This document shows positions 7,012 through 47,322 of a stretch of 64,000 nt of DNA, piece after piece. The DNA lies in NCBI GenBank assembly GCA_025463925.1, contig JAODBK010000004.1, forward strand, positions 1 through 64,000. The letters are read 5' to 3'. Origin of the DNA: Acidimicrobiales bacterium (GTDB taxonomy: Bacteria > Actinomycetota > Acidimicrobiia > Acidimicrobiales > AC-14). Below the pieces are notes generated by a model, which was not told the origin of the DNA, ran no database searches, and saw only the letters and a program-made list of their open reading frames with translations. The translations under genes were made by a program, and so were the position numbers. The number at the start of each line of letters is the position of its first letter. Position 1 is the first letter of the stretch.

Positions 7012-7547
7012 CGTGCCACCCCTCCCGTGTACTGGTTGATGATGCGGTCGACCGCGGCGTCGGCCCGGGCCACGATCGTCGATTCGTCGGTGCCGCCGAG
7101 CGGGTGGTCGACGACGACGACGCGGCAGTCTGGCAGACCGAAGTTGGCCGCGACCCGCGTGGTGAGGTCGACGAACTTCGTCGTCGTCATGACGACGGTC
7201 GGCTTGCCCCGCTTCTCGAGCTCGACGGAGTCGTGGACACTCCACGACGTGCAACTCCCTCAATCGGCCGACCCGGTGAGAACCAGGTCGACCTCCTCCG
7301 TGATCCGGTCGAGCACCAGGTCGCTGCACGCGGTGGCGGCGTTGTGGCCCGGCCCCTTGTCGGTGACCAGTTCGACGACCGCGCCGGTGCGGGCGGCCAG
7401 CTGTTCGGCGGCCCGGGTCAGCAGCAGCCGGGCGTTCGGCTTGCCGTTGTCCAGCACGGCGACGCGGAGGCCGGTGAGCACCGCCGGCGACGGCGCCCGC
7501 GGCTTGGGCGGGACGCCGATGCGTCCGTCCGGGGCGTAGATCTTCAC
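7008..7547 (-). CDS. UGSC-family selenoprotein (in-frame TGA read as selenocysteine)
   Basis: One 179-residue protein interrupted only by TGA at 7262-7260. The first 95 codons (GTG at 7547, with GAGGAG upstream) run in the same frame into the 83 codons after the TGA. Reading TGA as Sec gives U96-G97-S98-C99, the signature of the UGSC family of bacterial (seleno)proteins, whose other members have Cys at the Sec position. A hairpin with a GU-containing loop starts 12 nt after the TGA. The protein has an alpha/beta appearance with VAVLDNGKPNA near the N-terminus and VVVVDHP near the end. It is presumably a thiol/selenol redox enzyme; its substrate is not known to me. It lies 10 nt after the 341-aa gene and overlaps the NifU-like gene. 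Confidence 0.9.
7230..7262 (-). promoter_or_regulatory. Predicted bacterial SECIS hairpin of the UGSC gene
   Basis: On the minus strand, TGA (7262-7260) is followed by an 11-nt spacer. Then comes a perfect 7-bp stem, GTCGTGG (7248-7242) with CCACGAC (7236-7230), closing a 5-nt loop AGUGU. Bacterial SECIS elements lie inside the reading frame, with the upper stem-loop about 11 nt after the UGA and a GU in the loop. The match is by eye; no folding energy was computed. Confidence 0.72.
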
Positions 7548-33511: not shown

Positions 33512-33817
33512 ATGCGGGAGCAACTCATCGACGAACTGGTGGCGGCCGTCACCGCGGGACCGGGCCGGCTCGACCCGCACCTTCGCCTCCAGGCGTTCCA
33601 GGGCCATGCCATGCCGGCCGAGATCGCCGGCTACGCCGCCAAGGTCCGGGATCGTGCCTACACCGTCACCGATGAGGACGTGCGCGCCGTCGTGGCCGCC
33701 GGTTGGAGCGAGGACGAGGTCTTCGAGCTGACCGTGGCGCTGGCCCTCGGGGCCGGGCATCTCCGGCTCCGGGCGGCGGCGGACGCGCTCGATGCCGCGC
33801 GCGACGAGGCGAGCTGA
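33512..33817 (+). CDS. Small CMD/AhpD-like partner protein upstream of selenoprotein
   Basis: A 101-residue helical protein from the ATG at 33512. YTVTDEDVRAVVAAGWSEDE followed by FELTVALALGAGHLRL resembles the C-terminal helices of carboxymuconolactone decarboxylase/AhpD-like proteins, but it has no Cys at all, so it cannot do thiol chemistry alone. The stop overlaps the ATG of the AhpD-like selenoprotein by one base (TGATG), so the two are coupled. A regulatory or structural subunit of the downstream redox protein is the obvious guess. Confidence 0.75.
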   Translation: MREQLIDELVAAVTAGPGRLDPHLRLQAFQGHAMPAEIAGYAAKVRDRAYTVTDEDVRAVVAAGWSEDEVFELTVALALGAGHLRLRAAADALDAARDEAS

Positions 33818-34416
33818 TGCGGATCGCCACCCTCGACCACGGCCACCGCCTGCGGAACCGGCTGTTCCTCGGGATGATCCGGTTCATGAGCAAGGAGGAG
33901 CCCCACGACGTCCTGAAGATGCTGCACTACCGGCCGTCGTTCTTCGGCGGCCCGTTCTCCAAGCTCGTGCAGGACGTGATGCGGGGCCCGTCCGAGTGGT
34001 CGGTCGGCGACCGTGAGATCTTCGCCGCTTATACCTCGCGGCTGAATCAGTGCCCGTTCTGAACGGGGGCCCACGGCGCGGTCGCGTCGGCGGTGTACGG
34101 CAAGGAGCTCGTCAACGCGGTGCTCCGCGACGGCCCGGACGCGCCGGTGTCGGTGCAGTTGAAGGCCGCCCTCCGGCTGACCTCGGCCATGACGCTGGAA
34201 CCTGACCGCGTTGCCGCGTCGGTGGCCGCGATGCGGGCGATCGGCATGTCGGACCAGAAGATCCGGGACACGGTCGACGTCTGCTTCGTCTTCAACACCA
34301 TCGACCGCCTCGCCGACTCGTTCTCCTTCGCACTGCCCGGCGAGGAGAGCCACGACAAGGCGGCGCAGATCCTCCTCAAGCGTGGGTACGTGATGCCGGG
34401 GATCCTCGCCCGGTGA
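33817..34416 (+). CDS. AhpD-like selenoprotein with CxxU redox centre (in-frame TGA)
   Basis: A 199-residue protein read through TGA at 34060-34062. The 81 codons before and 117 after share a frame. Reading TGA as Sec gives C79-P80-F81-U82-T-G-A-H86. Cys homologues in the AhpD/CMD family have CPFCTGAH at this place, where the CxxC and the nearby His form the peroxidase centre. The second, solvent-facing or resolving Cys is therefore the Sec. A 6-bp hairpin with loop GGUC begins 12 nt after the TGA. The ATG overlaps the upstream small gene; a D-aminoacylase-like gene follows. A nonsense mutation is unlikely since both halves are intact and the motif is exact. Confidence 0.9.
34060..34089 (+). 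promoter_or_regulatory. Predicted bacterial SECIS hairpin of the AhpD-like gene
   Basis: After TGA (34060-34062) an 11-nt spacer leads to CGGCGC (34074-34079), loop GGUC (34080-34083) and GCGTCG (34084-34089), a 6-bp stem with one G-U pair. Spacer length equals that of the UGSC hairpin and the loop holds GU. Confidence 0.68.
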
Positions 34417-34428
34417 AAGGATCTGCTC

Positions 34429-36129
34429 ATGCTTGATCTGGTGATCCGGGGTGGGACGCTCGTGGACGGGACGGGCCGGCCCCGTCGCACCGCCGATGTC
34501 GGCGTGTCGGACGGGCGAGTGGTGACGGTCGGCCGGGTGGACGAGCCGGCAACCGAGACGATCGACGCCGACGGCGCGCTGGTGACGCCGGGCTTCGTCG
34601 ACATCCACACGCACTACGACGGGCAGGCAACGTGGGACCCGCGGCTCCAACCGTCGTCGAACCACGGTGTCACCACGATCGTGATGGGCAACTGCGGCGT
34701 GGGCTTCGCCCCCGTGCGCCCGAGCGATCACGGCCAGCTGATCGAGCTGATGGAGGGCGTCGAGGACATCCCGGGCGCGGCGCTGCACGAGGGGCTGCCC
34801 TGGGACTGGGGAAGCATCGACGAGTATCTCGACGCGCTCGAGCGCCGCGAGCACGACATCGACTTCGCGACGCAGGTCTGCCACGGACCGGTGCGGCTGT
34901 TCGTCATGGGCCAGCGCGGCGCCGACCGCGAGCCGGCGACCGCGGAGGAGATCGCCGAGATGGGCCGCGTTGTGGCCGCGGGGATCCGCGCCGGCGCGCT
35001 GGGCTTCACCACGTCGCGCACCTTGAACCACCGCACCAGCCGGGGCGAGCCCACGCCGACGCTCACCGCGGCGCGCGCCGAGCTGGTCGGCATCGCCCGC
35101 GCCCTCGGCGAGACGGGCGCCGGCGTGCTGCAGGTGGTCTCCGACTTCCCCGACTACGACGACGAGACCGAGACACTGCTCGAGATGATGCGGGTGTCGG
35201 CCCGGCCGTTGTCGTTCTCGCTCTCGCAGGGCCGGGCCGGCACGAGCTACCGCCATCTCCTCGACCTGCTCACGCGGGCGCGCCGCGAGGGGCTGACGAT
35301 GCGCGGCCAGGTCGCGGCGCGGGCCATCGGCGTCGTCATGGGTCTGCAGGGCTCGGTGAACCCGCTCAAGGGATCGGCGACGTTCCGGTCCATCGAGTCG
35401 CTCCCGCTGGCCGAGTTGGTCGCCCGCCTCGCCGAGCCGGCGGTGCGGGTCGCGGTCACGTCGGAGTTGGGCGCGGCCGATGGTCGGGCGTTGGGCCTCG
35501 ACATGGTGTTCGAGCTGGCCGACCCGCCGGACTACGAGCCCGACCCCGTCGACAGCATCGCGGCGCGCGCCGGCCGGGCCGGGATCGCGCCGGTCGACCT
35601 CATGTACGACCTCTTGCTCGGCGACGGCGGCCGGGCGCTGCTCTACTGGCCGGTGCTCAACTACGCCGACGGCAACCTCGACGCCGCCGGTGAATTGCTC
35701 GAGCACGAGTGCACCGTCCCGGGCCTCAGCGACGGCGGCGCCCATGTCGGGACGATCTGCGACGGCAGCTTCCCGACCACCCTCCTCGCGCATTGGGGCC
35801 GCGACCGCACTCGCGGGCGGAAGTTCGAGGTCGAGTGGCTCGTGCAGCAGCAGTGCCGATCCACCGCGGAAGCGCTCGGGCTGCGCGACCGCGGCATCCT
35901 CGCGCCGGGGTACAAGGCCGACATCAACGTGATCGACTTCGAGCACCTCGGCAACGCGCGCCCGCGCATCGTGTTCGACCTGCCGGCCGGCGGCAAGCGG
36001 CTGCTCCAGCAGGCGTTCGGCTATCTGCACACGTTCGTCAGCGGTGTGGAGATCGCCCGCGACGGCGAGCCCACGGGCGCGACGCCGGGGCGTCTGGTCC
36101 GCGGCTCGCAGCCGGATTCCGTCGGGTAG
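34429..36129 (+). CDS. N-acyl-D-amino-acid deacylase-type amidohydrolase
   Basis: A 566-residue amidohydrolase-3/D-aminoacylase family protein. The N-terminal metal HxH is at H60 and H62 (VDIHTHYDGQATWDP), NHGVTTIVMGNCGVGFAPV follows, and near the C-terminus GLSDGGAHVG gives the catalytic Asp. TLVDGTGRPRR and the final LLQQAFGYLHTFVSGV are typical of this group. It starts 12 nt after the AhpD-like selenoprotein, probably in one operon. D-aminoacylases release D-amino acids from N-acyl forms, but many members in actinobacteria have other, unknown amide substrates. Confidence 0.93.
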   Translation: MLDLVIRGGTLVDGTGRPRRTADVGVSDGRVVTVGRVDEPATETIDADGALVTPGFVDIHTHYDGQATWDPRLQPSSNHGVTTIVMGNCGVGFAPVRPSDHGQLIELMEGVEDIPGAALHEGLPWDWGSIDEYLDALERREHDIDFATQVCHGPVRLFVMGQRGADREPATAEEIAEMGRVVAAGIRAGALGFTTSRTLNHRTSRGEPTPTLTAARAELVGIARALGETGAGVLQVVSDFPDYDDETETLLEMMRVSARPLSFSLSQGRAGTSYRHLLDLLTRARREGLTMRGQVAARAIGVVMGLQGSVNPLKGSATFRSIESLPLAELVARLAEPAVRVAVTSELGAADGRALGLDMVFELADPPDYEPDPVDSIAARAGRAGIAPVDLMYDLLLGDGGRALLYWPVLNYADGNLDAAGELLEHECTVPGLSDGGAHVGTICDGSFPTTLLAHWGRDRTRGRKFEVEWLVQQQCRSTAEALGLRDRGILAPGYKADINVIDFEHLGNARPRIVFDLPAGGKRLLQQAFGYLHTFVSGVEIARDGEPTGATPGRLVRGSQPDSVG

Positions 36130-47100: not shown

Positions 47101-47322
47101 CTTCGTTTCTCCTTGTCATTCGGTAGCCCGGCCGACCCGGTGTTGGGCTCCGTGGCTTTGCGACCCCGCCTTGCAACGGGTGTGCCTTTTCGGTTGACGA
47201 CGGCACAATGTCCGTCTTCGCAGGTTTCGTCCGACCAGCCCGCTTCCTCAAGCCGCTGAGACCAGAGTTGTCTGCGCCGTGACCGCCGTTGTCTGCCCGT
47301 TGTCCGCCGGGGCCGTGATGCG
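47101..47322. promoter_or_regulatory. Divergent regulatory region with direct repeats of an OmpR-type site
   Basis: This 222-bp gap holds GTTGTCTGC (47267-47275), GTTGTCTGC (47288-47296) and GTTGTCCGC (47299-47307). The starts are 21 and 11 bp apart, so the repeats lie on one face of the helix, as OmpR/PhoB-family proteins require. The regulator gene starts at 47323. Confidence 0.6.

Follow-up and report, generated by a model that had tools for sequence, protein, structure and literature searches.

An AhpD-like gene with a predicted selenocysteine codon and a conserved, cysteine-less upstream partner in an Acidimicrobiales genome

The window analyzed here, a stretch of 64,000 nucleotides from an Acidimicrobiales bacterium (assembly GCA_025463925.1, contig JAODBK010000004.1, positions 1 to 64,000), contains an AhpD-like gene with an in-frame TGA, a short gene located directly upstream of it, and a second predicted selenoprotein gene on the opposite strand (Table 1). 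Frame 1 of the AhpD-like gene (MRIATLDHG...NQCPF*TGAHGAV...GILAR) yields 199 amino acids when the TGA is translated as selenocysteine (Sec, U), and this codon, in the context CPF-U-TGAH, is its single internal stop. The third-position GC content is 0.90 on the 5' side and 1.00 on the 3' side of the TGA, so that both halves look coding, and the alignment to the homologs is collinear across the codon. A preliminary description of this stretch had noted a frame that passes through a TGA at the position equivalent to the second Cys of CPFC, followed by TGAH, with two intact halves and a retained partner His. Each of these features was recovered in our analysis, with the His identified as H86.

Table 1. 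Positions of the predicted genes, codons and RNA elements in the 64,000-nucleotide window.
Feature	Position	Strand	Remarks
Partner gene, Cys-less half-CMD protein	33512..33817	+	101 aa; directly 5' of the selenoprotein gene
AhpD-like (TIGR01926/CMD) selenoprotein gene	33817..34416	+	199 aa; ATG start; stop TGA 34414-34416
E67	34015-34017	+	Alignment column invariant
CPFU (CxxU) redox motif, C79 and U82	34051..34062	+	Columns of E67, C/U82 and H86 invariant; C79 nearly invariant
In-frame UGA, codon 82, predicted Sec	34060..34062	+	14 aligned Sec relatives have TGA; the remaining ones have Cys codons
H86	34072-34074	+	Alignment column invariant
Predicted bSECIS apical hairpin, CGGCGC-GGUC-GCGUCG	34074..34089	+	6 bp, loop GGUC; from folding and synonymous-site conservation
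UGSC-family selenoprotein gene	about 7577-7010, TGA at 7262	-	Match to NF041046; GSAD-U-GSC

The best family match by far was to TIGR01926 (peroxidase-related enzyme), with a score of 73.5 bits as compared to a cut-off of 81.8 bits. When the Sec relatives of the same clade were scored singly against this model, they obtained 74.8–98.8 bits, and 6 out of 9 were above the cut-off. The match to the CMD family (PF02627) was slightly below its cut-off. As in the AhpD-like CxxU selenoproteins assigned to TIGR01926, the U of the CxxU motif is aligned with Cys in homologs. The predicted structure (pLDDT 92.7) has TM-scores of about 0.7 to 3c1l, 2pfx, 2prr, 2oyo and 6k40, and a sequence profile matched 6k40 with an E-value of 4.7e-30. 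The model has the peroxidase-related AhpD fold of the 3c1l/2pfx/6k40 type, and is overall nearer to 3c1l and 6k40 than to 1gu9.

The protein shares a two-helix catalytic motif and the E-x11-C-x2-C-x3-H spacing with AhpD from M. tuberculosis and PA0269 from P. aeruginosa (PMC3141380), with E67, C79, U82 and H86 in the form E-x11-C-x2-U-x3-H. In M. tuberculosis AhpD, the proton relay consists of Glu118, Cys130, His132, Cys133 and His137 (PMC3141380). Four of these five positions are kept in the window protein, in which Sec replaces the second Cys (Cys133) and Phe81 replaces His132; the full five-residue relay is thus not present. Since PA0269, which is weakly active, also departs at the position of His132 (Tyr50; PMC3141380), Phe81 does not exclude a mechanism similar to that of AhpD.

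Relatives were collected by protein searches in several hundred genomes from the genome's relatives, order and phylum, which are independent of the codon and hence unbiased with respect to codon 82. The seven closest relatives identified in these searches (L020, L063-L068; 46–55% identity) have TGA at codon 82 without exception, and the conservation of the TGA in related genomes that was to be checked according to the preliminary description is thereby confirmed. Its expectation of a Cys at position 82 in the homologs held for the more distant ones, with TGC or TGT in L050 (43% identity), L051, L069 and homologs yet further away, but not for the closest relatives, all of which have TGA. TAA or TAG at this codon in close relatives had been set beforehand as grounds for rejection; neither was found among all aligned relatives, which have TGA in the Sec-type sequences and TGC or TGT in the rest. 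Candidate TAG and TGA codons at position 82 in L050 and L052 were rejected, as the listed stops fall elsewhere and codon 82 is TGC in both.

Codon-82 TGA was also found in relatives from four other phyla, giving five phyla in total. A search with a DNA pattern that requires TGA, and is therefore biased for codon 82, identified 19 places, about ten of which are relatives. The loci that were added by the pattern come from records named Planctomycetota, Acidobacteriota, Desulfobacterales, Myxococcaceae, Actinomycetes and a Terrabacteria-group bin. As the pattern does not extend beyond codon 87, the conservation of codons 88–91 in these loci is not created by the pattern itself. A first contig scan, in which U was replaced by Cys in the query, recovered no relative. 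The tree of Sec and Cys sequences has little resolution within the clade to which the window gene belongs, and supports neither direction of change between Sec and Cys.

The preliminary description had made the case dependent on selenocysteine genes in the genome, and these are present. A tRNA-Sec with the anticodon tca was identified above the Rfam cut-off, and both selB and selD scored above their cut-offs. The selA gene was recovered in two pieces, covering positions 61-257 (C29:46-600) and 273-454 (C95:10400-10888). Because both pieces are located at contig ends and the piece on C95 adjoins selB, only a few bases apart, the simplest reading is a single selA gene that has been split by the assembly. 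Contigs C29 and C95 are probably neighbors in the genome. Among the seven TGA-bearing relatives, tRNA-Sec was identified in five and selA in six, with at least one of them in all seven. No tRNA-Sec match was obtained in the incomplete assemblies of the Sec-form genomes G645 and G672, in which selA was found, and no selA match in the Sec-form genome G431, in which tRNA-Sec was found. The tRNA-Sec is by itself a weaker marker, since some of the control genomes, among them Caulobacter and Thermotoga, also gave matches above the cut-off of the model. At a stricter threshold for selA, E. coli was the sole positive among 14 control genomes.

The predicted bSECIS hairpin downstream of the UGA is lengthened by a lower stem to about 34067-34096. 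The stem begins 11 nt past the UGA, and the distance from the UGA to the loop is 17 nt. In the published bSECIS model, the loop has 3–9 nt with a G within its first two positions, the upper stem has 4–16 bp, the UGA-to-loop distance is 16–37 nt, and the MFE is -7.5 kcal/mol or lower (PMC13188914). The hairpin agrees with the model in loop, stem, loop G, spacing and MFE, the last being -8.1 kcal/mol for the hairpin alone and -14.5 kcal/mol within a 36-nt stretch. The apical stem alone has a z-score of -2.3, and the folding energy of the whole region is not below that of shuffled sequence.

The mean synonymous-codon identity in 15 Sec sequences is 0.84 at codons 85–91, as compared to 0.50 (sd 0.18) elsewhere, and the highest six-codon windows in the gene start at codons 85–87. 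There is no such rise in the Cys sequences, for which the values are 0.55 at codons 85–91 and 0.56 elsewhere. Two of the six base pairs have changed on both sides, from C-G to U-A in L080 and from G-U to C-G in L078, the latter accompanied by replacements of Gly by Ala and of Ser by Ala. As the stem is nearly invariant and contains only these two events, the covariation by itself is suggestive; in combination with the synonymous-site signal, it is strong. The bSECIS core is kept at synonymous sites over five phyla at protein identities down to about 45%, and offers a compact natural test of recognition by SelB.

The comparative data make the reading of the UGA at codon 82 as Sec very well supported. 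The mechanical list of open reading frames splits the gene at this position and contains a GTG-start frame at 34093-34416, as would fit a true stop codon, either in a pseudogene or between two genes at 33817-34062 and 34093-34416. The probability of this is negligible, given that relatives from five phyla share the TGA at codon 82 and conserve the protein before and after it, that the coding composition is intact on either side, that E67 and H86 do not vary and C79 hardly does, and that no relative has TAA or TAG. Read-through of UGA is also known in bacteria, and another residue could be inserted instead of Sec, such as Trp by near-cognate read-through, or Cys. We regard this as very improbable, since codon 82 aligns with the catalytic Cys, the genome contains the Sec machinery, and the apical hairpin is kept at synonymous sites in the UGA group only.

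Accepting Sec at codon 82, the role of the upstream gene needs to be considered. Its stop codon, TGA (33815-33817), shares one base with the ATG of the selenoprotein gene. Within the clade, each of the 17 relatives, 14 of the Sec and 3 of the Cys form, has a homolog directly upstream, which is absent from this position in the canonical TIGR01926 outgroups L070, L021 and L052. Among 396 genomes from the phylum, nine have the partner, and eight of these are exactly the genomes that have the AhpD gene of this clade; the ninth match begins 74 bases from the end of its contig, so that a following gene would be cut off. In a profile alignment by hhalign (probability 94%, E 9e-8), the partner matches residues 96–170 of the selenoprotein, and it is thus a homolog of the C-terminal half of the fold. 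The partner family has no conserved Cys, and the predicted structure has a pLDDT of 96. No description of the partner was found in a word-based search of the literature. The copy in the window has no Pfam or NCBIfam match above cut-off, which would be compatible with an incidental neighbor that has no function in common with a genuine selenoprotein. We find this unlikely in view of the placement immediately upstream in all 17 loci of the clade, which span five phyla, the co-occurrence in the phylum genomes, and the homology of the half-fold to the selenoprotein.

From linkage, coupling and homology, we infer instead that the two proteins probably form a complex, and that their translation is probably coupled. 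What may be new in the finding is this partner-linked clade. More tentatively, and at slightly less than even probability, the selenoprotein and its Cys-less half-CMD partner could be the two obligate subunits of one hetero-oligomeric AhpD-type selenoperoxidase or disulfide reductase. This would represent an undescribed two-component system, carried by five or more phyla as a cassette in which the bSECIS core hardly varies. The conserved partner provides a testable handle on the function of the AhpD-like selenoprotein family.

In the mechanism suggested by the comparative evidence, SelB and tRNA-Sec would decode the UGA at codon 82 as Sec, directed by the downstream hairpin, and Sec82 would stand in for the second Cys of CxxC, which corresponds to Cys133 of M. 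tuberculosis AhpD. In analogy to that protein, in which the residues have the same spacing, Glu67 and His86 may hold the selenol reactive, and Sec82 may attack a hydroperoxide or a disulfide, after which Cys79 would close a selenenylsulfide that could be reduced by a cellular thiol donor. The complex with the partner, which might cap the helical bundle or set substrate access, is the weakest step in the scheme. For the explanation as a whole, i.e., an AhpD-like thiol/selenol oxidoreductase with a hairpin-directed Sec82, AhpD-like catalysis and a complex with a coupled partner, our confidence is high, within what can be deduced from sequence.

The Sargasso Sea and GOS metagenomes have already yielded AhpD-like CxxU selenoproteins (PMC1088965, PMC2398784), and a 2026 review (PMC13188914) tabulates them under TIGR01926. 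This kind of protein is thus already catalogued, and the gene in the window is a well-supported further member. It has the CxxU motif, the best-matching NCBIfam model, the bSECIS past the UGA and the widespread Cys homologs in common with the AhpD-like family (COG2128 / TIGR01926), but belongs to the partner-linked clade, which is separated from the canonical TIGR01926 outgroups with a support of 100/100. An AhpD-type domain with CxxU is also found in NF041238 (AhpD_rel_CFYUT; alkylhydroperoxidase-related selenoprotein, Sargasso hypothetical protein 1), a model of 357 positions with the motif CFYUT, as compared to CPFUT in the window protein, which scored only 34.6 bits against the equivalog cut-off of 175. 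In the same order, a second AhpD-related type with an in-frame TGA and the motif CHYUxxHH was observed in L028, L031 and L034, with GCGGTCTGCG-type hairpins past the TGA in L028 and L031.

The preliminary description had also counted a second selenoprotein in the window, which is most likely the UGSC-family gene. Its score against NF041046 was 121.8 bits, as compared to a cut-off of 125, and NF041046 is likewise a known Sec family, although unrelated to the AhpD-like protein in fold and motif. A possible hairpin, GTCGTG-GAGTGTC-CACGAC, is located past the UGA of this gene. A search of the genome with a model of the bSECIS described above gave one strong match, which is the AhpD-like gene itself; the weaker matches L094, L095 and L099 were inspected as candidates for a second selenoprotein, and none was convincing. 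The window thus contains two independent selenoprotein genes in a genome with the full Sec machinery, and an annotation that does not consider Sec would shorten both. Directly 3' of the AhpD-like selenoprotein gene is a gene of the Amidohydro_3 family (34429-36129, plus strand), and L020 has a different downstream gene. Elsewhere in the window, a c-di-GMP-I riboswitch aptamer was identified on the minus strand (47119-47196), above the Rfam gathering score.
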